Positions 5,619-17,324 of a stretch of DNA of 64,000 nucleotides are shown here, one piece after another. The notes below the pieces were generated by a model. It was not told where the DNA came from. It ran no database searches and was given only the letters and a program-made list of their open reading frames with translations. Source of the DNA: Thioalkalivibrio sp. ALJ7 (lineage in GTDB: Bacteria; Pseudomonadota; Gammaproteobacteria; Ectothiorhodospirales; Ectothiorhodospiraceae); assembly GCF_000376865.1 (NCBI RefSeq), contig NZ_AQXQ01000012.1, positions 62,001 through 126,000 on the forward strand, written 5' to 3'. A program made the position numbers and the translations under genes. Numbering within the stretch: position 1 is the first letter of the stretch; the number at the start of each line of letters is the position of its first letter.

Positions 5619-7138
5619 TGGATGGCGGTTGGCTGCTACTGGCGATCCTGTTCAGCTCCCTCGGGCCGGGGATCGCGATCTTCTTTCTGCCGGAACACCG
5701 GCACCGACTGCGCATCACGCTGAACCTCGGCGGTGCGGGTATCAAGCTGGCCCTGGTCGGCGTTCTGCTGGCCGGGGTCCTGCGCGGCGACGAGTACCAA
5801 TTCAGCCTGCCCCTGATGCCGGGGATCGACCTGGTGCTGGCGGCGGATGCCCTGTCGCTGCTATTTGCCTCGCTGTCCGCGGTGCTGTGGTTCGTGACCA
5901 CGGTCTACGCGATCGGCTACCTGGAGGGATCCCCTCGGCGCAGCCGTTTCTTCGGATTCTTTTCGCTGTGCGTCAGCGCCACGGTGGGGATCGCGCTGTC
6001 CGGCAACCTGATCACCTTCCTGATCTTCTACGAAATGCTGACCCTGGCGACCTGGCCACTGGTGGTCCACCGCGGGACCCCAGCCGCGTTGCGGGCCGGC
6101 CGGCTCTATCTTGGCTACACCTTGACCAGCGGGCTCGTGCTGTTCACTGCCATCGTCTGGCTTACCCTCCTGGCCGGGGCCGAGGGCTTCACGCCGGGTG
6201 GCTACCTGGGTGACCTGAGCGAGACCCACGCCCTCTCGCTACAGGTGCTGTTCGTGCTTCTGATGATCGGGTTCGGGGTCAAGGCTGCGTTGTTTCCCCT
6301 GCATTCCTGGCTGCCGATCGCCATGGTGGCGCCGGCCCCGGTGAGTGCGCTGCTGCATGCGGTGGCCGTGGTCAAGGCCGGGGCCTTCGGCATCATCCGC
6401 GTGGTCAACGACGTCTATGGCGCGGAGCTCGCGATCGAGCTGGGGCTGACGGCCGGACTTCTGGTCGTCGCGGCCTTCACCATTATCTACGGGTCCATCC
6501 AGGCATTACGGGCCGACGACCTGAAACAACGCCTGGCCTTCTCCACCGTCAGCCAGGTCTCCTACATCATCCTGGGGGTGGCACTGGCGGGACCGCTCGG
6601 GATCATCGGGGGACTGGTACACCTGGTGCACCAGGGCATCACCAAGATCACTTTGTTCTTCTGCGCGGGCAACTTCGCCGAGACCCTGGGGATTCACCGC
6701 ATCAGCGAGCTCAACGGGATTGGGCGGCGCATGCCGTTGACCATGCTCGCCTTTACGCTCGGGGGGCTGGGCATGATCGGCCTGCCGCCGCTGGCCGGGT
6801 TCGTGACCAAGTGGCACCTGGGGCTGGGGGCACTGGAGGCCGAGGCCCACTGGGTACTCGGCGTCCTGGTGCTGAGCAGCCTGCTGAATGCGGCCTATTT
6901 CCTGCCCCCGATCATCCGCGGCTGGCTGGGTGAACGCCGCGAACCCTGGCACGAACCCCTAAGAGATCACGCGGGTCCGACCCGCTTCGAGACCCACTGG
7001 ATGCTGTTGTTCCCGGTCGTCTTCACGGCCGTGTTGGGCCTGGCCGTCGGCTTGTTCTCCGGGTTGGGCCTGAGCCCGCTGGGCTGGGTTAGCCTGATCG
7101 TGCAACGCGACTATTCCCTCCCGGAGTTCAGCCTGTGA
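5618..7138 (+). CDS. Mrp antiporter-like subunit (second NuoL/M/N homologue)
   Basis: 506 residues, again a NuoL/M/N-type antiporter-like protein. The TM5 glutamate sits in TFLIFYEMLTLATWPLV, the TM7 lysine in GFGVKAALFPLHSWLP, with APAPVSALLHAVAVVKAG after it and DDLKQRLAFSTVSQVSY in the discontinuous helix. LLHAVAVVKAG is the form usual in MrpA/NuoL-like proteins, so this gene probably supplies the function of the MrpA N-terminal part, split from its DUF4040 domain. It lacks the long C-terminal extension of full MrpA. Start coincides with the last base of mrpD; the end overlaps the next gene by four bases. Confidence 0.87.
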   Translation: MDGGWLLLAILFSSLGPGIAIFFLPEHRHRLRITLNLGGAGIKLALVGVLLAGVLRGDEYQFSLPLMPGIDLVLAADALSLLFASLSAVLWFVTTVYAIGYLEGSPRRSRFFGFFSLCVSATVGIALSGNLITFLIFYEMLTLATWPLVVHRGTPAALRAGRLYLGYTLTSGLVLFTAIVWLTLLAGAEGFTPGGYLGDLSETHALSLQVLFVLLMIGFGVKAALFPLHSWLPIAMVAPAPVSALLHAVAVVKAGAFGIIRVVNDVYGAELAIELGLTAGLLVVAAFTIIYGSIQALRADDLKQRLAFSTVSQVSYIILGVALAGPLGIIGGLVHLVHQGITKITLFFCAGNFAETLGIHRISELNGIGRRMPLTMLAFTLGGLGMIGLPPLAGFVTKWHLGLGALEAEAHWVLGVLVLSSLLNAAYFLPPIIRGWLGERREPWHEPLRDHAGPTRFETHWMLLFPVVFTAVLGLAVGLFSGLGLSPLGWVSLIVQRDYSLPEFSL

Positions 7139-8850
7139 CGGCCGCGCTGCTCCTCACCGTCCCCTTGCTACCGCTGATGCTAGCGGTACTGATCGGGCTG
7201 CGTCCGGGCCGAACTCGCCTCAACCATCTGGTGCCCTGGGTCGCACTGCCTGGGCTGTTGCTCGCCGCATTCGCGCCGCCCGGTCTCGAGGCCTCGATCG
7301 ATGGCCTGTTGATGGGGACGCAGCTGGCCCTCGACCCGACCGGCCGGGCCTTCCTTGCCCTGACCGCCGGACTGTGGCTGGCCGCCGGCCTGTTCGCGCT
7401 AGGCGATCGCGGCCAGGACCCTCAGCGCCATCGCTTCTACGTGTTCTGGCTGCTGGCCTTGACCGGCAACCTGGGGTTGATCCTTGCGCAGGACGCCCTG
7501 AGCTTTTATCTGTTCTTCGCGCTCATGAGCCTGTCCGCGTACGGGCTCGTCGTACATTCGGGCAAACCCGAGGCCTGGCGGGCCGGACGCATCTATCTGA
7601 TTCTCGCGGTGCTGGGCGAGGTGCTGCTGTTCGCGGGCCTGGTCCTGGCCGTCCATGCGGCCGGGCAATCGGGGCTTGCGGCGGTCGCGGCGGCGCGCCC
7701 CGAAGGCTGGGCACTCGCACTGTTGGTCCTGGGACTCGGAATCAAGGCCGGCATGCTACCCCTGCATTTCTGGCTACCACTGGCTCACCCAGCAGCCCCG
7801 GTGCCCGCCAGCGCGGTACTATCCGGGGCGATGATCAAGGCGGGCCTGCTCGGCTGGATGCGCCTGCTCCCCTTTGACGCCACGGGTCATATGATTCTGG
7901 GCGAGCTCCTGGTCGCACTGGGCCTCACCGCGGCCTTCCTCGGGGCAGTGATCGGCGCACTTCAGGTCCGTCCGAAGACCATCCTGGCCTACTCCAGCAT
8001 CTCGCAGATGGGCCTGATGACAACGGGCATCGGACTGGCCCTGCTGCTGCCGGAAGTCCGTGGCTGGCTGCTGGCCGCGGTCACGCTCTACGCCGTTCAC
8101 CACGGGCTGGCCAAGGGGGCGCTGTTCCTGGCGGCCGGCATGCAGGATCAGCGGCCGACCGGGCCATTGGCCAGCCGTCTGTTCGCGTTGTTCGTCCTGT
8201 TACCGGCCGCGGCCTTGGTCGGTGCCCCTCTGACCAGCGGCGCAGTAGCCAAGAATGTCCTCAAGGGACCACTGGACGCCGAGGCCCTGCCGGGCTGGCT
8301 GGCCCACACGGAGCTGCTGCTGACCCTGGCCGCCACCGCAACCACCCTCGTGCTGCTGCGCTTTCTGTGGCGCTGGCGAGCCGGACTCCAGGCGCCCATC
8401 GAGGGACTCGACCATAGCCGGTGGTGGGCCTGGGGGAGTCTCGCCCTGATGGCGCTGTTGATCCCGATCTGGATCGTCTGGACCGCACCCGGCGCGTTGC
8501 CTGCCGAGGTCCACGATCTGTTTGGATTCAGCCTACTCTGGCCCATCGCCCTCGGGCTCGGACTTGGATGGCTCACCTATCTTTGTGTGCGGGACCGCGC
8601 CACCCCACGCCTGCCGGAAGGCGACCTTGCGATCCTGATGGAGGCCGCCTGGAGGACGGCCCGGCACAAGCGCCGGAGCCTGGCCCTGCCCCCTCCACGG
8701 CCGCGCCGCATTCCGGCACGCCTGCGTGGCATCCGCTTGCTCTGGCGCGCACGCCTGGAGGCCGCCGAACGCGTATTAACCCGCTGGGAGACCATCGGCC
8801 TTTTGTTCGCCAGCGCCCTGCTCGGCCTCTACCTGACCTTGCTGCCGTAG
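7135..8850 (+). CDS. Mrp antiporter-like subunit (third NuoL/M/N homologue, TM5 Glu replaced)
   Basis: 571 residues from a GTG start overlapping the preceding stop (GTGA). It is a NuoL/M/N-family membrane protein with GLGIKAGMLPLHFWLPLAHP (TM7 lysine present) and VRPKTILAYSSISQMG in the discontinuous helix. At the position of the otherwise conserved TM5 glutamate it reads LFFALMSLSAYGL, with Ala instead. The C-terminal 90 residues form an Arg-rich cytoplasmic segment (CRHKRR..., PPPRPRRIP) and one last helix. Last gene of the operon. A third antiporter-like subunit is not part of the canonical seven-gene Mrp; it may be a degenerate or structural channel module. Confidence 0.82.
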   Translation: MTAALLLTVPLLPLMLAVLIGLRPGRTRLNHLVPWVALPGLLLAAFAPPGLEASIDGLLMGTQLALDPTGRAFLALTAGLWLAAGLFALGDRGQDPQRHRFYVFWLLALTGNLGLILAQDALSFYLFFALMSLSAYGLVVHSGKPEAWRAGRIYLILAVLGEVLLFAGLVLAVHAAGQSGLAAVAAARPEGWALALLVLGLGIKAGMLPLHFWLPLAHPAAPVPASAVLSGAMIKAGLLGWMRLLPFDATGHMILGELLVALGLTAAFLGAVIGALQVRPKTILAYSSISQMGLMTTGIGLALLLPEVRGWLLAAVTLYAVHHGLAKGALFLAAGMQDQRPTGPLASRLFALFVLLPAAALVGAPLTSGAVAKNVLKGPLDAEALPGWLAHTELLLTLAATATTLVLLRFLWRWRAGLQAPIEGLDHSRWWAWGSLALMALLIPIWIVWTAPGALPAEVHDLFGFSLLWPIALGLGLGWLTYLCVRDRATPRLPEGDLAILMEAAWRTARHKRRSLALPPPRPRRIPARLRGIRLLWRARLEAAERVLTRWETIGLLFASALLGLYLTLLP

Positions 8851-8875
8851 CAATCAGAGGCGGATGGGCGCGCAC

Positions 8876-8909
8876 AAAAAAGGCCGGCTCCAAGCCCGGA
8901 ACCGGCCTT
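8876..8909 (-). terminator. Rho-independent terminator of the secreted hydrolase gene
   Basis: A 12-bp stem (8880-8891 with 8898-8909, one mismatch, loop AAGCCC) is followed on the minus strand by a run of T (plus-strand A tract 8876-8881). It begins 20 bases after the stop of the minus-strand hydrolase gene. The plus side lacks a T tract, so it is mainly a minus-strand terminator, though the hairpin also closes the convergent Mrp operon. Confidence 0.8.
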
Positions 8910-8928
8910 CAGGGTCAAAGCGTAGCGA

Positions 8929-9831
8929 TCACTGCTGGTTGATGAAGTCCGCCGCAAAGTCGGCCACGTCATCGGCGAAGAAGTCGCGGAAGAAGTGATC
9001 CGCACCGTCCACCGTCATGACGCTGATATCGCCAGAGTCCTTCACCGCCTCGACCTTCTCCGGCAGATCCGGCACCACGTCATCCTCGGAACCCACAATC
9101 ACCAATGTCGGGGTCTGAATGCCACGAATGACAGTCGGAGTGTCGTTCTCGCTGGTCGGCTCGTAGGAGCCCAGGAAGGCGCGCGGGGTGACGTCCAGTT
9201 CCTCGCAAAAGAGGAAGCGCACGTCTTCCATCAGGGTCTCTTCCTGATCCATGCGCTGGAGCTCCTTGGCACGGTCCAGCAGCACCTGCAGTGGCGTCCC
9301 GGCCTGCTCCTCGTACTCGGCGGCGGCCTCTTCCTCGTCGAAGGTGGACGCTGCCACCAGCACCAGCCCCTTGATGTCCTCCGGTTCGTGCGCGGTCAGA
9401 TAGCGCGCCATGTGGTTGGCACCGCGGGAATGCCCGAACAGGGTCACGGGGCCATACCCCTCATCCTGCAGCCACTGGTGCCACAGGCTCACTTCCTGCA
9501 TGTGATCATCGATACCGTGGCCCACTGGGGCGTCGCATTCAAACATCCCTTCGCGGGCATCGATGCCATAGCTAAGATTGATGGACAGGGAATTCAGCCC
9601 GTGGTCGGCCAGGAGGTCCTGCACCGCAGCCATTACCTCCATTCGGCCATGGGCCAGGGTGCCGTGAAGCATCAGCACCACGCCATCGGACGGACTGGCC
9701 CCCATGCCCTCTTTCATATGCCCGACCAGCGTCAGGTCGTCGTGCTCTAGCGTGACCTTCTCCGCAGCCATGGCAGAAGAAGCGAAAAGGCCGGCAACCG
9801 CCAGCGCGGTTGTTGCAATCCATCGAGACAT
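8929..9831 (-). CDS. Secreted alpha/beta hydrolase
   Basis: 300 residues from the ATG at 9829-9831, chosen because of a strong AGGAGG site six bases upstream and a signal peptide beginning there (RWIATTALAVAGLFASSAMAA). The alpha/beta-hydrolase fold is shown by VVLMLHGTLAHG (oxyanion loop), the nucleophile elbow GHSRGAN with Ser, and late VGSEDDVVPDLP and DGADHFFRDFF segments supplying Asp and His. Between them lies a charged cap (EEEAAAEYEEQ). Similar proteins are annotated as DUF3530-type or dienelactone-hydrolase-like; the substrate cannot be told. A single-gene unit with its own terminator; its upstream end faces the polysaccharide operon's end. Confidence 0.85.
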   Translation of the reverse strand: MSRWIATTALAVAGLFASSAMAAEKVTLEHDDLTLVGHMKEGMGASPSDGVVLMLHGTLAHGRMEVMAAVQDLLADHGLNSLSINLSYGIDAREGMFECDAPVGHGIDDHMQEVSLWHQWLQDEGYGPVTLFGHSRGANHMARYLTAHEPEDIKGLVLVAASTFDEEEAAAEYEEQAGTPLQVLLDRAKELQRMDQEETLMEDVRFLFCEELDVTPRAFLGSYEPTSENDTPTVIRGIQTPTLVIVGSEDDVVPDLPEKVEAVKDSGDISVMTVDGADHFFRDFFADDVADFAADFINQQ

Positions 9832-9967
9832 GGGGACCTCCTGATTGTGGAATCCTGAAATAGACTCACTGGCTGCAGGAAAATTCCCTGGAGACATATC
9901 GCGCTCGGCACAGCACTTGCCGGAGATCGCCCTCAACAGGTTGTCCACGCCCCGCCAACTGTCGGAT

Positions 9968-11014
9968 TCAGAACTTCACTCGAACCGGCAGACGATCCAC
10001 TCGCCAAATCTCGGGCAAGGCCTCTTCCGGCTCCACGATCACAGGTACCGCACTCTGACCATCCCCAATGCCCGTTCGCAACTCGGCGGGCAAACGATTC
10101 GCCGCACCGAAGGTGTCCCGCACCACCGCCGCCCGCTGCGTGCGGTCGGGGAGGATGAGCGTCACTTCCCGACCAGGGACGATTCGCCGCTCCAGATGGC
10201 GCGGCTCGATGTACGCCACGATACGCAGCCGGGTGCCGCTGTAACGCAACAAGGGGGTTCCAACGTTCACGAACTGCCCGGGCTCGACGAGCTGCTCCGT
10301 AATCACGCCATCCAGCTCGGCCTCTTTCACCAGCAAGGCCCGCTCTTGCTCAAGCCCAGCCCGTTCGGATTGAAGCTGGGCGTGGCGAATTTGCATGGTA
10401 TCGGGCCAGGTGGCGACAGCATCGACCTCCGGAAGGCTTTGCAACTCGCCTTCTAGCTCGGCCAGGCGCTCTTCGAGCCGCCCCCGCTCGGAGCGAATCG
10501 GTATCCGTTCCCCCTGATTGGCCGACCCCCGTTCAATCAAGCGACCCAGGCGTTCTTCGTGGTCACGAAGGTCGGCCAAATTGACCTCCAGGAGCCCGAT
10601 CCGTCGCTCCAGGTCCGACTGTTGCTCGCGTCTTGAATGCGCCACGCGTTGCCGCAAATCCACGAGATCCACCTCAACCTGCAGCAGTTTGCTGGTCAGT
10701 TCCGGACTCCGCAGCGCCACGACCTGATCACCCTGAGTCACGCGGTCCCAGGGCTCGACTTCGACCGAGTCGACAAACCCCGGGACCCGCGCCAGAAGTT
10801 GGTGCTGCGGATACCAGATCATCGCCGGGACCTCGGTCGATACTTGGTCACTGATCAGCGAGTACAGGAAGTACAGGACCGGACTGGCCACCAGTAGCAG
10901 GATCAGATACCAGCGCAGGCGGAACGCCGCCCGCCGCGCGGGCCCATAGCGAACGCGCAGCCCTGAGTCCTGGCCTGCTCGCCGCCGCTCGTTACCATCA
11001 AAGCGAATCTTCAT
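9968..11014 (-). CDS. HlyD-type membrane fusion protein of the polysaccharide operon
   Basis: 348 residues. A cytoplasmic basic tail of 30 residues precedes one membrane helix (AFRLRWYLILLLVASPVLYFLYSLI). Then a split biotinyl-lipoyl-like domain (YPQHQLLARVPGFVDSVEV... and ELDGVITEQLVEPGQFVNVG) encloses a coiled-coil hairpin of about 120 residues (LRQRVAHSRREQQSDLERR, RGRLEERLAELEGEL), and a beta-barrel domain follows. This is the layout of periplasmic adaptors that join an inner-membrane component to an outer-membrane channel. Its start overlaps the end of the TolC-like gene by 17 bases, so the two are translationally linked. Last gene of the operon. Confidence 0.87.
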   Translation of the reverse strand: MKIRFDGNERRRAGQDSGLRVRYGPARRAAFRLRWYLILLLVASPVLYFLYSLISDQVSTEVPAMIWYPQHQLLARVPGFVDSVEVEPWDRVTQGDQVVALRSPELTSKLLQVEVDLVDLRQRVAHSRREQQSDLERRIGLLEVNLADLRDHEERLGRLIERGSANQGERIPIRSERGRLEERLAELEGELQSLPEVDAVATWPDTMQIRHAQLQSERAGLEQERALLVKEAELDGVITEQLVEPGQFVNVGTPLLRYSGTRLRIVAYIEPRHLERRIVPGREVTLILPDRTQRAAVVRDTFGAANRLPAELRTGIGDGQSAVPVIVEPEEALPEIWRVDRLPVRVKF

Positions 11015-13079
11015 CTGCCCACATGTCCTTCAAATCCGAATAACTCTGGATGGCGATCGGGAGCTGCGACTGACCCAGTGGCTCCAACGCGGCCTGCAAT
11101 CCCTCGCGCATGGCCGACCAGCCGTGCTGGAACCAGCTGTTCTCCGGCGGCAACACCCGCTCCACACTTTGCGCCAGCACCCAGTCCAGTCCCGGTTCGC
11201 GTGCGAGGATGGGCTCCAGGCGATCTCGCAGGCTCGCGGGGCGCGTCACATAGGCCATCAGCGCGATCTCATCCACGCCACGATCGGCGAATTCGCAACT
11301 CAAGCAGCGATCCGCCTGCCCAAAATCCCGTGGATGCGCACTAATGCCCACTCGCCATGGAGAGACTCCGGTTGCGGCAGCGACGGTCGCCAGCCATTCC
11401 TCCAGGAGCCAATCGCGGTCGTGGGTTTCGGTGTCGAGTTGATCAATCTCGATATCCAGGTGCAGATCGCTGAACCCGATATGGGCCAGGTCCCGGATGA
11501 TGTCCAGGAGATCATCGCGGTAGTCCGGCAGCGTCCAGGTGGGCTCGCCCAGAAGAAGGCCGACCTCGACCCCCTTGCCTTCGGCCTCGCCCAGGAATCG
11601 TTCCAGATCGGCCGGGGTCTCTCCGTACCGATCGATCTGGTCACCGTCGAGTGACAACCAGACATGGTCCACGCCGGCTCGTTCCACGATGGGCCAGAAA
11701 TCCGTGTCACGGCCGGTAATGACCGGCTCGCTCTGCCAGACATAAAGGCGTGCCGGCCCGCTAAGTGGGCGTATGGTCTGCACGGGTTCTCCGAGCTGAT
11801 GGCGTGCCTGCGCCTCACGCTCGAGGCTGCGCGGCTGATCCGTTGCCAGCTGATCACATCCAACCTGCGCCAACCAAATCTCCAGGCTGGCATCCAGCCA
11901 GTCTTTGGCGGCGCGGTAGTAGTCCGCGCGGGCGGGCAATACCTCCTCCCACGGTACCGCGAGGGCCTCTTCGGTTCGGTCCTGCGCCACGCGAAGGGAC
12001 CGCGCAGCCCGATCGACCTCGGCCGCCCGGTTCTCTAGCCGGCGCTGGTGAACACTGAGTCGCCGTTCGGCCAGACTCTGGCGCTGCTGGACGGAACCGC
12101 GCGCCTCGGTCTTGAGATGTTCAAGGCGGCGCTGTTCGGCTTGCAGCTCGCGCCGGAGGGGACTATCGCCGCTGAACGATCGCAACGGGATCGACACGGT
12201 CCAAATAAACTCGAGTCCGCCACCCAAGCGGCTCACGTCGTCTTCATAGGTCGACGAATAGCGAAACTGCAGATTGGACTGCAACGCATCAAAGCGTGTC
12301 AGTTCCTCGCGGTCCACGGCGCTTTGCAGCTCCACCTCGACGGCCCTGACCTCGGGCGCCTGGTGGGCCTCCTGGAGCGGACAGGTCGTCCGGTCAGGAT
12401 CGAACCAGGCCGGCACTTGCCGCAAATGGACGGGGCGTCCCAGCAGACTCTCCAGTTCAAGAAGGGCTTCTTCCTCATCGATCGCGGCCTGATCAGCATC
12501 CATGCGCGCGGTGTCGAGTGTTTGCTGCAAACGTCCGATCTCGTCCTCACGCATCAACTGCTGATCGCGGCGTTCCCTCAGGGCGCTCTCGAGGTCTGCC
12601 TCCACCGACTGCAGCGCACGGCTAAGCGCCTGAACACGGCGGGCATGCCAAACTCGGGCATAGGCCTCGGCGATATCGCGGCGGATCTCTTGGAGCTGTT
12701 CCCGATAGCGGTATTCGGCCGCCCCCGCCTCCCCTTGCGCCTGCAGGAATGCCCGCCGCTGCTCCTCGTCGCTACCCAGCAAGGGGCGTTGCACCCCAAC
12801 CGATGCGCTCGTGCCGGTGTAACGGCGGTTAATACCCGCGGCGACAGGCTCTTCGAAACGCCCCGCACCTGCGCTGCCGAACAGCTCCCAGCCGTGGCTT
12901 TCATACTGGCGATCTTGTTGTGCCCGCAAACGATCGGCCTCGGCCTGTTCCGCCAACAACGAGGGCGAATATACGGCGTCCTCCAAGAGCTCCGGCAAGC
13001 GATCCCCGGCGCCCACGCTTCCACCCAGGGCAACCCCCAACAGACAGCACAAACCCATGGAAAGCATTCGTAGCGTCAT
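10998..13079 (-). CDS. TolC-like outer-membrane protein fused to a GH18-like TIM-barrel domain
   Basis: 693 residues with a signal peptide (MLSMGLCCLLGVALGGSVGAG). Residues about 30-425 resemble an outer-membrane efflux protein: repeated long coiled coils (EIRRDIAEAYARVWHARRVQ, EEEALLELESLLGR) and a second repeat half. Residues about 445-690 form a different domain that looks like a TIM-barrel glycosidase: FSDLHLDIE with a D-x-E pair at the position of the GH18 catalytic motif, ISAHPRD, and ALMAYVTRP like the GH18 M-x-Y strand. Fusion of an export channel with a putative glycan hydrolase is unusual. The neighbours (glycosyltransferase, HlyD adaptor) indicate polysaccharide export. Confidence 0.78.
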   Translation of the reverse strand: MTLRMLSMGLCCLLGVALGGSVGAGDRLPELLEDAVYSPSLLAEQAEADRLRAQQDRQYESHGWELFGSAGAGRFEEPVAAGINRRYTGTSASVGVQRPLLGSDEEQRRAFLQAQGEAGAAEYRYREQLQEIRRDIAEAYARVWHARRVQALSRALQSVEADLESALRERRDQQLMREDEIGRLQQTLDTARMDADQAAIDEEEALLELESLLGRPVHLRQVPAWFDPDRTTCPLQEAHQAPEVRAVEVELQSAVDREELTRFDALQSNLQFRYSSTYEDDVSRLGGGLEFIWTVSIPLRSFSGDSPLRRELQAEQRRLEHLKTEARGSVQQRQSLAERRLSVHQRRLENRAAEVDRAARSLRVAQDRTEEALAVPWEEVLPARADYYRAAKDWLDASLEIWLAQVGCDQLATDQPRSLEREAQARHQLGEPVQTIRPLSGPARLYVWQSEPVITGRDTDFWPIVERAGVDHVWLSLDGDQIDRYGETPADLERFLGEAEGKGVEVGLLLGEPTWTLPDYRDDLLDIIRDLAHIGFSDLHLDIEIDQLDTETHDRDWLLEEWLATVAAATGVSPWRVGISAHPRDFGQADRCLSCEFADRGVDEIALMAYVTRPASLRDRLEPILAREPGLDWVLAQSVERVLPPENSWFQHGWSAMREGLQAALEPLGQSQLPIAIQSYSDLKDMWADEDSL

Positions 13080-13080
13080 A

Positions 13081-14418
13081 TCAGCGCTTGCCCTTGCGGA
13101 GCACCCACCAGGGGGCCATGGAGGATTCCTGATTCGAGTGGCGCCACCACTCGTTGATGATGGCCACCAGTGACCAGATCCGCATGATCATCGCGAAGAA
13201 GGGGAAGATCGGGATGAGCCAAGCCAGGCGCGCGTCGCGGCTGCGACGTTCCGAGATAAACACGAGGGCTGTGATGTACATCAGGAAGGTCAGTACCGCG
13301 TACAAACCCATGATGATCGTAAAGGTGGCCACGACAACCGCAGGCGCCACCGCGATGACCAGCCACAACGTGTACATCACGATCAGGACGGGCATAACCA
13401 TCTGAAACAGCATGCCGTACCACACCCCCAGCAGAACATTCCAAAAGCCCATCTGCCGCACCGAAAACGCCGATCGGTGCTTGCGCATGTACATATAAAA
13501 AAGATCCCCGTCCCAGCGCAGACGCTGCATCAGGAAGCCCTTCCAGGTTTCAGGACAATCGGTGTGCCCTATGGCTCGGGGCTCAAACACGATACGAAAC
13601 CCCGGGTAGCGGCCGAAGTACTGCTTGAGCCTCAGGGTAAGGTCGAGGTCCTCCGCCGACCCGGTCGTCCAGCCCCCGATCTTGCGCACCATTTCGGTCC
13701 GAAACACACCGAACGCACCGGAGATGTTGTTCACCCCGTGCAACTCTCCCAGCCCCACCTTGGCCAGGTGAATCGTGATCATATATTCGAGCGACTGGAA
13801 CCGAGTCAACAGGTTGCGCCGCCAGTTCCGCACTCGCAGTGAACCCGCCACGGCAATCACGTTGGGGTCGCGGAAATGCCCGGCGACCTCGGTCACCATG
13901 GTGTTATCGAATGAGGTATCCGCATCCAGCGCCAGCAAGATCTCACCCCGCGCCATGGCCAATCCTGCATTGAGGGATGAAACCCGCCCGCCTCGAGGCG
14001 TCTTGGGCACAACCACCAGACGCCGACTGGCGTACTGTTCAACCTCGGGCATCATCTCGCGCAAGGCGCGCAACGTACTCGGATTCTGGTCCGCCCCGTC
14101 CACTACCGCGATGATCTCGATCTGTCCCGGATACATCTGTTCCATAAGGGATCGCACCGTCCCCTTGACCGCATCGCCCTCGGAGTAGCAAGTCACAACG
14201 CAGGTCACTCTCGGGGTGAAGGGGTATTGCGTGGGAACGGCATAGATCCGGCGCGTGTAGTAGCGCAGCACACCCAGCCAGATCATCAGGTTGAGAGGAA
14301 GCTCGAGAAACAGCACAAACGGGATAAACATGTACGCCAGTGCCAGCGCATCCGTCTCGTAGAACAGCCCGCCGAGGATAGTGGCCACCTCGGCGAAAAA
14401 TTCGAGGATTGCCGTCAT
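13081..14418 (-). CDS. Membrane family 2 glycosyltransferase (polysaccharide synthase)
   Basis: 445 residues. One or two N-terminal helices, then a processive GT2 domain: CVVTCYSEGD, VVDGAD, the metal-binding LLALDADTSFD (D-x-D), TGSAEDLDL (acceptor-site acidic motif) and QRLRWDGD (the Q/RxxRW motif of cellulose, chitin and hyaluronan synthases). At least four C-terminal helices follow. All catalytic motifs are intact, so an active processive synthase is expected; the sugar cannot be told. Its start overlaps the stop of the TackOD1 gene (ATGA), and it ends one base before the TolC-like gene, so it is in one operon with both. Confidence 0.9.
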   Translation of the reverse strand: MTAILEFFAEVATILGGLFYETDALALAYMFIPFVLFLELPLNLMIWLGVLRYYTRRIYAVPTQYPFTPRVTCVVTCYSEGDAVKGTVRSLMEQMYPGQIEIIAVVDGADQNPSTLRALREMMPEVEQYASRRLVVVPKTPRGGRVSSLNAGLAMARGEILLALDADTSFDNTMVTEVAGHFRDPNVIAVAGSLRVRNWRRNLLTRFQSLEYMITIHLAKVGLGELHGVNNISGAFGVFRTEMVRKIGGWTTGSAEDLDLTLRLKQYFGRYPGFRIVFEPRAIGHTDCPETWKGFLMQRLRWDGDLFYMYMRKHRSAFSVRQMGFWNVLLGVWYGMLFQMVMPVLIVMYTLWLVIAVAPAVVVATFTIIMGLYAVLTFLMYITALVFISERRSRDARLAWLIPIFPFFAMIMRIWSLVAIINEWWRHSNQESSMAPWWVLRKGKR

Positions 14419-15848
14419 TGCGAGAGGGAGACCATCCGGGCCATCACGGCCGCTGCGTTTTCTGCCTCGCTCATGCCGAACGAAGACTCGTGATACACCC
14501 GCCCCAGCCGATCAAGTTCGGTCCCTTCGACACTGTCCTCCATCAACTGGGCCAAACGGCCGGCCAGCACATCCACCCCATCCGCGGAGGTCTGCGGCAG
14601 CAAGAGCCAGATCCGGTCATCGGCGGTACGAGTGACCAGATCCGTGGTGCGCACCAGTGCCTTGACGCGCTCGGCAAACGCATCCACCAGCGCGGCCCCC
14701 CGGCTATGCCCCAAGGTGTCGATCACACGCGCCAGGCCATTGAGGTGCAACAGAATCAGGCCAAAGCGCATCTCATCGTGGCGTTGACGCAGCTTCAGGA
14801 GCCAATCACAGGAAAACTCGAAATGCTCCGGCGTAACGTAGTTGATCTCATCGAAGACCCCATAGAGATCGCCAATATCACCGGTACGCGCCAGCAGACG
14901 CCCGGCTTCGGACAGGCGGTAGCGGTAAATCCCAAACGCCTCAAGTTCATTCGGGTCATGCGCCTGTCCGCAGGCCATGCACCGAGCCAGCACCCGCCCA
15001 TCCATGAACATATGCTGGCAGCTGCCGCAGACATGGTTTTCCAGCGGACGGTCGTAATCCTCGCCAATGTGGCGCAACACCGCCGAACAGTTCGGACAGC
15101 TCAGCATGCCGTTGTCCTGGAACAGCCGTTGCGGCCCGACATGCCCGCAACTGAAGCAATGCAACCCCGGCTCGGTCCGGATATCCAGGGAGTCACACTC
15201 CGGACACACATCGACAAAACTGAGGTGTCCGTGGCGACACCCCGGACACAGGCGCACCCGGTCGACAAGGTCCTGTCCCTCGATCAGCCGTCGATGCTTC
15301 AACCCGCGCAGCCAGAACTCGGTCGTGTCTTCCTCCAGCAGCGCATCCAGTAACGGATAACGATAAAGTTCCGGCGCCGACCAATCCCGCAGCGGCTGCA
15401 GACTCAGCGAAGGGTGACTCCACAACAACGACAGCAGGACTTGGTCCTGGCTCCGCATCGGCTGTCCACCGTTCGCCGTCGCCAGGCGCGCGGCACAGCT
15501 TTCGATCCGCTCGCGCGGGTTGTCCACCGTCCGAAACTCCCCGTCGGTCAGGGCTTTAATCTCCGGGCCCGCATCCCCCTCGGTCCAGATCAATCGCAAC
15601 TGCCAAACTGGATGGCGGCGAAGCGCCCGTACCAATTCCAGCGCACCCGACAGCGAATCCAGATCCACCACAAAGGCCAACGTGGCTTGTTCCAGGACCT
15701 CTTCCAACCCCTCGGAGTGGAGTTCCTCAAGCGAGGCAAACTGATCCGTTGGCAGAGTCGCACCGAGCGCGTCGGAGAATCCCGGACGTCGGGAAAAGGT
15801 TACGACCCGAGAGGCGCCTTCTATGTCACGTTCCTGTTGCTTCGCCAT
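14415..15848 (-). CDS. TackOD1 zinc-ribbon protein with degenerate GGDEF domain
   Basis: 477 residues. An N-terminal receiver-like region (about 1-120) is followed by a cysteine-rich segment: RLCPGCRHGH, DVCPECDS, LHCFSCGHVG, LSCPNCSAVL, HVCGSCQHMF, ARCMACGQ, i.e. several CxxC pairs typical of the TackOD1 output domain. Residues about 350-477 are GGDEF-like (FGLILLHLNGLARVIDTLGHSRGAALV) but the signature loop reads RTADDRI instead of RGGDEF, so diguanylate cyclase activity is very unlikely. It is the first gene of the polysaccharide operon and probably senses or relays a signal, perhaps c-di-GMP, to the synthase. Role inferred. Confidence 0.82.
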   Translation of the reverse strand: MAKQQERDIEGASRVVTFSRRPGFSDALGATLPTDQFASLEELHSEGLEEVLEQATLAFVVDLDSLSGALELVRALRRHPVWQLRLIWTEGDAGPEIKALTDGEFRTVDNPRERIESCAARLATANGGQPMRSQDQVLLSLLWSHPSLSLQPLRDWSAPELYRYPLLDALLEEDTTEFWLRGLKHRRLIEGQDLVDRVRLCPGCRHGHLSFVDVCPECDSLDIRTEPGLHCFSCGHVGPQRLFQDNGMLSCPNCSAVLRHIGEDYDRPLENHVCGSCQHMFMDGRVLARCMACGQAHDPNELEAFGIYRYRLSEAGRLLARTGDIGDLYGVFDEINYVTPEHFEFSCDWLLKLRQRHDEMRFGLILLHLNGLARVIDTLGHSRGAALVDAFAERVKALVRTTDLVTRTADDRIWLLLPQTSADGVDVLAGRLAQLMEDSVEGTELDRLGRVYHESSFGMSEAENAAAVMARMVSLSQ

Positions 15849-15850
15849 TG

Positions 15851-15864
15851 AATACCTTGGTATT
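15851..15864. promoter_or_regulatory. Perfect 14-bp palindrome at the start of the polysaccharide operon
   Basis: AATACC-TT-GGTATT is a perfect inverted repeat whose edge lies two bases upstream of the TackOD1 start codon. It could be an operator covering the ribosome entry region or a small RNA hairpin. No regulator is identified. Confidence 0.35.
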
Positions 15865-15945
15865 TCGATACGCCGTCTCTATGCAAATGGATAAGAAGCG
15901 GCAGGTCCTATTGATCACGTCATGCGGCCCGCAAGGGGCCATCCC

Positions 15946-15961
15946 TGTGATGTCCGTCACA
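15946..15961. promoter_or_regulatory. CRP/Clp-type binding site upstream of polysaccharide operon
   Basis: TGTGA-TGTCCG-TCACA is an exact match to the TGTGA-N6-TCACA consensus of CRP/Vfr/Clp-type regulators. It lies about 100 bases upstream of the TackOD1 start, a normal distance for activation. The assignment rests only on the motif. Confidence 0.5.
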
Positions 15962-16141
15962 TATTAACGGTACAAGTGCGCGATTGCTTGGCCCGCACCC
16001 AGCAGTCCCTTGCAAGGCGGCCACCCGCATCCGCCGGCGGGGAGTGAAGGCATCCTCCGGGGTGCGCTACTAGTGAACTGCGCTGGCACGCGGCGAAGGC
16101 TCCCAAGCCGCCCCACCCAAATCGAGTTTTTCAGGAACACC

Positions 16142-16264
16142 ATGGCGCAGCACATCTTCACCATGAACGGCGTAGGCAAGATCGTCCCGCCGAAGAAATA
16201 CATCCTCAAGGACATCAACCTGAACTTCTTCCCGGGCGCCAAGATCGACGTGCTGGGTTACAAC
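16142..16264 (+). pseudogene. Truncated 5' copy of ettA
   Basis: The first 123 bases of an ettA gene, 116 of 123 identical by eye to the intact copy at 20129-20251, including the start codon and most of the ribosome-binding stretch (CAGGA...C.CATGGCG). Similarity ends at the codon for Asn just before the Walker A glycine-lysine, after which the frame runs into the 3' flank of the fluoride-channel gene. Two of the seven differences change amino acids (Tyr to His, Gly to Asp). It cannot make a functional ATPase. It marks a duplication or insertion boundary. Confidence 0.85.
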
Positions 16265-16286
16265 GCGGCCGGCACCGCCGCGACGT

Positions 16287-16703
16287 TCAACCCTGCGCCG
16301 CCGCGGCGTTCAGGCGCCGTCCCATGCGGCTGCCCAGCCACACCCCGACAATCCACAACACCAGGGAGACGGCGCCATAGAGCGCCGCACGCGCCGGATC
16401 CCCGGTCTGCACCAGCCACAGGCTCTCCAGGCTGAACACCGAGAAGGTCGTAAAGCCGCCGCAAACCCCCGCCAGCATGAAATGACGAAACACCGGGTCG
16501 GCCGGGCGGCAGCCGCCCGGCGCGCTGATCACCGCATACAGCCCAATCAGCCACGATCCGGCCACGTTCACGGCCAGCGTGTCCCACGGAAAGCCGGTAC
16601 CGGCCAGGTGCAACCCGGTCCAGGAGACGCCGTAGCGCGCCATGCTGCCGAGCGCGGCCCCCAGCGCCACGAACAGCGAGAGACGCAGCGAATACCCGGT
16701 CAC
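16287..16703 (-). CDS. crcB: Fluoride channel subunit CrcB/Fluc (second of pair)
   Basis: 138 residues with four predicted helices. The Fluc signature is clear: GAALGSMARYGVS in the first helix, FPWDTLAVNVAGSWLIGL in the second (conserved Asn), and GVCGGFTTFSVFSLESL in the third, which carries the phenylalanine box and the central Na+ site. Fluc proteins export fluoride as antiparallel dimers. The gene overlaps its neighbour crcB by four bases, so the two are probably a heterodimer with fixed opposite topologies. No fluoride riboswitch was recognised upstream of the pair. Confidence 0.92.
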   Translation of the reverse strand: MTGYSLRLSLFVALGAALGSMARYGVSWTGLHLAGTGFPWDTLAVNVAGSWLIGLYAVISAPGGCRPADPVFRHFMLAGVCGGFTTFSVFSLESLWLVQTGDPARAALYGAVSLVLWIVGVWLGSRMGRRLNAAAAQG

Positions 16704-17098
16704 GCCGCGCCACCTGCCAAGCGGCCCAGCGCGTGTCCGATGGCCACCAGCGCCAGCCCCCCGCCCAGGGTCAGCAGGACGTAGACGAGCGCCGGGCGCA
16801 GCCCGTCCTGTTCCGCGACCCCGACCACCTGCAGGCTGAACGAGGAGACCGTGGTGAAGCTACCGAGCACACCCACCACCAGCAGCAGCCAGAGCCCGGA
16901 GGCCAGCGCCGGCCCCGAGGCCCATCCCAGCGCCAGCCCGATCAGCAGCGCACCGGAGGCATTCACCACCAGCGTCCCCCACGGGAAGCGGCCGCCCCCG
17001 GTGCGGTTGTCGATCCACTGCGACAGCCAGAAGCGCGCCACCCCCCCAAGCGCACCCCCGGCTCCCACCAGCAACAGTCCCTCCCACCACGCGATCAT
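16700..17098 (-). CDS. crcB: Fluoride channel subunit CrcB/Fluc (first of pair)
   Basis: 132 residues from the ATG at 17096-17098; a start 39 bases earlier is possible but adds a tail not usual before the first helix. Motifs: GAGGALGGVARFWLS, FPWGTLVVNASGALLIGL and GVLGSFTTVSSFSLQVV, with Val in place of Phe at the first Phe-box-like position (FTTVSSFSL). Only about a third of its residues match the partner subunit, as expected for an obligate heterodimer. Transcribed before the other crcB with a four-base overlap. Confidence 0.9.
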   Translation of the reverse strand: MIAWWEGLLLVGAGGALGGVARFWLSQWIDNRTGGGRFPWGTLVVNASGALLIGLALGWASGPALASGLWLLLVVGVLGSFTTVSSFSLQVVGVAEQDGLRPALVYVLLTLGGGLALVAIGHALGRLAGGAA

Positions 17099-17324
17099 GG
17101 CCCCATTGTCAGCGGCACCGCCCAAGCTGTCGAGCATCGGGGTCAGAGCAACACTGACTCATGAACGCGCCCGCGTACCCTTCACGCGACAACGTTACAG
17201 CGCAGACGCCTGGGGGCCACCCGTCGCGATCGCCGCGGGTCCGGAACCGCCAACCAAAGCAACACCCCGTCGACAGAGGCGCGATGGCAACTGAGCGCAC
17301 GTCCAGACACACGCGCCGCAGAGC

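Follow-up and report, generated by a model that had tools for sequence, protein, structure and literature searches.

A window of 64,000 nucleotides from Thioalkalivibrio sp. ALJ7 (the whole stretch of DNA analyzed, from whose first letter all positions below are counted) carries an operon of four minus-strand genes. The host genome is 2.71 Mb in size; of the relatives that have a name, Thioalkalivibrio sp. ALMg11, in the same genus, is the nearest. The operon contains the following features, in the order of transcription.

14415-15848, minus strand: TackOD1 protein, 477 aa, with a pseudo-receiver (residues about 11-128), a TackOD1 zinc domain (132-312) and a degenerate GGDEF domain (326-477); no transmembrane segment
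13081-14418, minus strand: GT2 synthase, a family 2 processive glycosyltransferase, 445 aa
10998-13079, minus strand: TolC-type channel fused to a C-terminal barrel, with a predicted signal peptide
10998-11774, minus strand: barrel domain alone, residues 436-693 of the fusion protein
9968-11014, minus strand: HlyD-type periplasmic adaptor, 348 aa, with one N-terminal transmembrane segment

An ORF check and Pfam searches confirmed the four packed ORFs, with the identities given to them in an earlier interpretation made from the letters without database searches (hereafter, the sequence-only reading). TackOD1 and GT2 overlap by 4 bp, 1 bp separates GT2 from the fusion gene, and the fusion gene overlaps HlyD by 17 bp. 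The Pfam matches are TackOD1 (2e-60) and GGDEF (2e-12) in the first protein, Glyco_tranf_2_3 (6e-22) in the second, OEP (2e-11) in the third, and HlyD_3 (2e-8) in the fourth. Transmembrane predictions across the four proteins are consistent with an envelope machine. No Rfam match was found within positions 9500-16800 of the window. The alpha/beta hydrolase gene downstream (8929-9948) was excluded from the system because in two other loci of our survey (L009 and L010) its homologs are separated from the cluster by about 6 kb. On the other side, a tandem pair of small membrane-protein ORFs (16287-17137, minus strand) resembles a CrcB-type fluoride exporter pair and is a candidate for one.

The GT2 protein retains D107, DAD (165-167), ED and QRLRW, in agreement with the sequence-only reading, which had described a processive synthase with intact motifs. 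Transmembrane prediction gives two stretches at the N-terminus and three to four at the C-terminus, and with these flanking stretches and motifs the protein corresponds to the inner-membrane processive GT2 of synthase-dependent exopolysaccharide systems. The closest curated model is PgaC/IcaA (TIGR03937), and hhalign aligned the protein with PgaC at 1e-34 over 277 columns. An assignment as a PgaC/IcaA poly-N-acetylglucosamine (PNAG) synthase was rejected because the score of 157 bits is below the equivalog cut-off of 422 and the protein falls in a separate clade. Cellulose synthase CelA/BcsA (TIGR03030) was also rejected (24.9 bits vs. 699, and no PilZ match). PgaC itself is not known to have a PilZ domain, which calls for caution toward the earlier suggestion that TackOD1 replaces a PilZ-like regulator. 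In a tree that included nine reference synthases only, the TackOD1-linked GT2s form one clade with a support of 98/95. The GT2s of four loci with a permuted gene order (L049, L051, L053, and L058) have GPGLDGD where others have AEDLD, an alteration in the region of the catalytic-base motif. Hints at the polymer from the genomic context are mixed: GalE follows HlyD in L062, GH16 follows HlyD in L048, and the GT2 is PgaC-like. The GT2 family may yield more than one polymer. A plasmid of Roseomonas marmotae (L110, 810-5128) carries GH16, HlyD, and GT2 together without TackOD1; this is a separate GT2-HlyD lineage, which shares the GH16 neighbor with L048.

The survey of TackOD1 neighborhoods covered plasmids as well as whole genomes from the genus, the class, and the phylum of the host, and the first set supplied the profiles used for annotation. 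GT2 and HlyD genes are clustered with TackOD1 in 45 of the 47 proteobacterial loci; the exceptions are L045 and L059, the latter being one of two copies in its genome, of which the other has both. The TolC/barrel fusion was found in 21 loci, including that of the window; in two of them it is frame-broken (L050 and L056). A TolC gene is not adjacent in about half or more of the TackOD1 loci, and some consist of the TackOD1-GT2-HlyD trio only. The gene order of the window (TackOD1-GT2-TolC/barrel-HlyD) recurs in L043, L046, L050, L060, L091, and L093, and the permuted order TolC/barrel-HlyD-TackOD1-GT2 is found in L049, L051, L053, L054, L058, L095, L100, and L101. Methylocystis (L071) has the barrel as a protein of its own, encoded after the trio in one gene run together with a separate TolC gene. 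Conservation of the four genes together, which the sequence-only reading had proposed as its own check, therefore extends far beyond the genus Thioalkalivibrio.

The linkage of TackOD1 and GT2 is reciprocal. Strong matches to the window GT2 (E <= 1e-70) occur in 10 of 369 gammaproteobacterial genomes, all 10 of which are among the 19 that are TackOD1-positive, and on plasmids the best 15 GT2 records coincide with the 15 that contain bacterial TackOD1. In Thioalkalivibrio, the six genomes that have TackOD1 are also those that have the TolC fusion; the module is thus acquired and lost as one. All four genes are also present on pKAM329_3, a 29-kb mobilizable plasmid of Aeromonas caviae (L060, locus 5851-11682). 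The plasmid operon adjoins partition and toxin-antitoxin genes, and its GT2 is close to the chromosomal GT2 of L043. The four TackOD1 copies on haloarchaeal plasmids (L067-L070) are stand-alone proteins of ~320-330 aa with no GT2 or HlyD neighbor; therefore, we do not claim the GT2 link for archaea.

The outer-membrane part of the system is encoded together with the synthase in the window and the 20 other fusion loci. In an AlphaFold model of the fusion protein (pLDDT 83.5, 14 sequences), residues 25-418 adopt a TolC fold (matching VIA with a Z-score of up to 25.4), while residues 440-691 form a (beta/alpha)8 barrel. The score against OEP (PF02321; 44.6 bits vs. a gathering threshold of 22), together with this fold, places the N-terminal part in the TolC family. 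The relationship to outer-membrane efflux proteins, on which the sequence-only reading had staked its interpretation, is thus upheld by a TolC/OprM fold in the model. The TolC parts of the permuted-order relatives have no match to the Pfam OEP model. One TolC/barrel protein (L046, 10932-13442) carries an AMIN domain in addition, at its N-terminus (Pfam, 5e-13).

The closest structural matches of the barrel are Cwp19 (Z 18.3), a GH18 chitinase (6k7z; Z 17.5, rmsd 3.7 over 230 residues), the C-terminal domain of E. coli PgaB (Z 16.4), and BpsB (Z 15.9). The GH18 fold is thus present, and it is common to PgaB and others. GH18 enzymes have their catalytic residues in a D-x-E where strand 4 ends and in an M-x-Y of strand 6. 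In the barrel, strand 4 bears H540-x-D542-x-E544 and strand 6 bears M608-x-Y610; D542, E544, and M608 are invariant in 22/22 sequences, and H540 and Y610 are conserved in 21/22. The GH18 motif DxxDxDxE is replaced by HxDxE, in which H540 takes the place of the first Asp of the inner triad while D-x-E and MxY are retained, and by this motif the barrel is not a GH18 member. Neither the window protein nor the relatives tested has a Pfam glycosidase match, and hhalign found no sequence homology to PgaB or BcsZ, so the link to PgaB is by fold only. The GH18-like barrel of the sequence-only reading therefore stands as regards the predicted fold and the invariant residues, but not as regards motif and family membership. 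The termini of TolC are periplasmic, and the barrel is therefore expected in the periplasm. From its fold and conserved residues, it is likely a hydrolase of the GH18/PgaB type. The altered motif, with His in place of the Asp four positions before Glu, and the missing glycosidase match would also fit a domain that binds or guides the polymer and is not an active hydrolase. We regard this as possible but doubtful, given the near-invariance of D542, E544, M608, and Y610 at the strand ends where GH18 catalytic residues sit; it bears on the barrel alone and would leave the proposed machine otherwise unchanged.

Efflux is the commonest role of HlyD and OEP proteins, and the Pfam scores obtained here are generic. 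HlyD and TolC could accordingly serve other cargo, in an efflux or type I secretion route of their own, with GT2 making a glycolipid or modifying a surface molecule. We consider this very improbable, since the operon has no ABC, MFS, or RND pump, HlyD accompanies GT2 and TackOD1 in 45 loci whose surroundings differ widely, and the channel carries a sugar-hydrolase fold.

The TackOD1 protein scores 203.9 bits against PF18551 (gathering threshold 32) and has the CxxC set, as expected of a family member. Its structural model (pLDDT 86.8) aligns with PleD over the receiver-like N-terminus and the C-terminal GGDEF domain. Inspection of the sequence revealed that the N-terminal part is without the usual acidic pair and lysine, and it is therefore labeled a pseudo-receiver. 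The dead GGDEF loop of the sequence-only reading is indeed ADDRI in the window, and the GG(D/E)EF signature of diguanylate cyclases is missing in all 45 of the 45 bacterial members compared. The earlier reading had missed that the I-site RxxD (R400 and D403) is intact. Among the gamma-type members, RxxD is kept in 36/36 and the secondary-site R356 in 35/36. In a ranking of 153 GGDEF columns by conservation, D403 is first and R400 third, and the active-loop columns are placed 28th to 132nd. The spacing of 44 residues between R356 and R400 equals that between R198 and R242, the secondary and primary I-site residues of WspR (compare R313 of PleD). Part of the RxxD conservation may be structural, R and D being common in GGDEF domains generally. 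By analogy, a retained I-site with a lost active loop is the pattern of c-di-GMP receptors such as PelD and BcsE.

The members from alphaproteobacteria are different. RxxD is kept in only 2/9 of them, and two carry true receiver domains; c-di-GMP therefore cannot be the universal input. Judged from the sequences, the TackOD1 domain seems to be constant across members and the input domain variable. In Roseibium and Palleronia (L063 and L064), TackOD1 with an N-terminal receiver is encoded beside histidine kinases and Hpt proteins, an arrangement that suggests phosphorelay control of GT2. These loci would also fit a TackOD1 protein that supports the structure or the assembly of the synthase, either as a zinc scaffold or as a pseudo-receiver relay from a kinase, with GGDEF a leftover that does not bind c-di-GMP. 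The persistence of TackOD1, GT2, and HlyD in alphaproteobacterial members without RxxD points the same way, as do the 11 near-invariant cysteines of TackOD1 next to a variable GGDEF part. Such a role is unlikely for the gamma-type clade that includes the window, where RxxD and R356 are kept while the catalytic loop drifts; here a receptor of c-di-GMP remains the preferred reading. The proposal that TackOD1 replaces a BcsE-like regulator is upheld in part. The kept I-site, the lost active site, and the pseudo-receiver-GGDEF order resemble BcsE, but a profile comparison by hhalign gave no significant match between the two proteins (E 0.37), so the likeness is one of analogy. BcsE and PelD are not among the structural matches listed for the TackOD1 model, which is uninformative in either direction. 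The 2.7-Mb host genome contains 49 GGDEF matches, a high density of c-di-GMP genes.

Several known systems share parts of this arrangement. PelD of the Pel system reads c-di-GMP by the RxxD of a degenerate GGDEF domain (PMC8461298), and Pel has a dedicated periplasmic hydrolase and an outer-membrane part (PMC12022489). The RxxD of a degenerate GGDEF domain, a putative periplasmic hydrolase, and an outer-membrane part recur here, but PelA-G are absent, the zinc and pseudo-receiver domains of TackOD1 replace the TM-GAF part of PelD, and HlyD-TolC replaces PelB/C. BcsE consists of a degenerate receiver and a degenerate GGDEF domain and binds c-di-GMP by RxxD (PMC7439463). E. coli cellulose synthesis (BcsA/B/C/Z and BcsE) therefore shares the receiver-GGDEF tandem regulator and a processive GT2 with our operon, which differs in having no BcsB, BcsC, or BcsZ homologs and no PilZ domain. 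Similarity to the PNAG system PgaABCD lies in a GT2 nearest to PgaC and a barrel with the fold of the PgaB hydrolase domain; the PgaA TPR-porin, the PgaB deacetylase, and PgaD are absent here, and the GT2s form their own clade. For cyanobacterial cellulose, tripartite export through XcsA, XcsB (HlyD), and TolC was proposed by Maeda et al. 2018; a review of this model points out that no single operon holds the three parts and that experimental validation is absent (PMC12430437). The combination of GT2, HlyD, and TolC is the same, whereas the cyanobacterial system has TolC outside the operon, PilZ regulation, and no hydrolase-channel fusion. The rhizobial mixed-linkage glucan genes BgsB-BgsA form a c-di-GMP-activated bicistron of HlyD-like protein and GT2 (PMC9495663, PMC5567048). 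This is likewise a GT2-HlyD pair under c-di-GMP, but c-di-GMP binds the C-terminus of the GT2 itself, and no TackOD1, TolC, or hydrolase gene is reported in the operon. In archaea, the cysteine-rich TackOD1 output domain is paired with receiver domains (PMC5847659); the domain and the receiver pairing are shared, while the archaeal contexts are stand-alone or response-regulator proteins. The main text of a large operon survey of synthase-dependent systems does not mention HlyD, TolC, or TackOD1, and no description of this gene set was found in the open-access literature. Precedents, known or proposed, exist for the GT2-HlyD pair (BgsBA) and for the GT2-HlyD-TolC path (cyanobacterial cellulose); the complete operon and the role of TackOD1 appear to be new, and the case for a distinct class that has so far gone undescribed is strong.

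The conserved linkage, the TolC fold, and the I-site support the overall interpretation of a polysaccharide synthesis and export operon. From the computed gene content, linkage, clade, folds, and residue conservation, we propose, with a probability of roughly 75%, that the four genes make up a self-contained exopolysaccharide machine of the synthase-dependent kind, responsive to c-di-GMP, with HlyD-TolC export and a tethered periplasmic hydrolase. GT2 would polymerize a nucleotide sugar and thread the chain through its own membrane channel, as its processive motifs and transmembrane layout suggest. HlyD would bridge GT2 to the dedicated TolC-type channel, forming one conduit over the periplasm and outer membrane, a path indicated by linkage, folds, and topology. 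The periplasmic barrel on the C-terminus of TolC presumably trims or guides the chain, as its fold and conserved acids suggest by comparison with the PgaB hydrolase domain. The cytosolic TackOD1 protein, unable to make c-di-GMP, would bind it at the conserved I-site and relay the signal to the neighboring GT2 by a putative contact, as PelD and BcsE do in their own systems.

It is also probable, at a somewhat lower confidence than for the locus itself, that these loci represent a class of widespread and so far undescribed polysaccharide machines defined by an obligatory TackOD1 partner. TackOD1 would be the signal-reading partner of GT2, using the I-site in gammaproteobacteria and a receiver in some alphaproteobacteria, and the channel would carry its own polymer hydrolase. 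Export of GT2 products via HlyD-TolC is an open question in view of what the review says of the cyanobacterial model (PMC12430437); here, all three parts share one operon, with the hydrolase on the channel. The role of TackOD1 has been termed obscure in the single open-access paper in which the domain was found (PMC5847659). The locus offers a testable function for this domain, which, if true, would be its first assignable role, and the retained I-sites predict that these proteins are a new group of receptors for c-di-GMP, although some carry the annotation of diguanylate cyclases at present.
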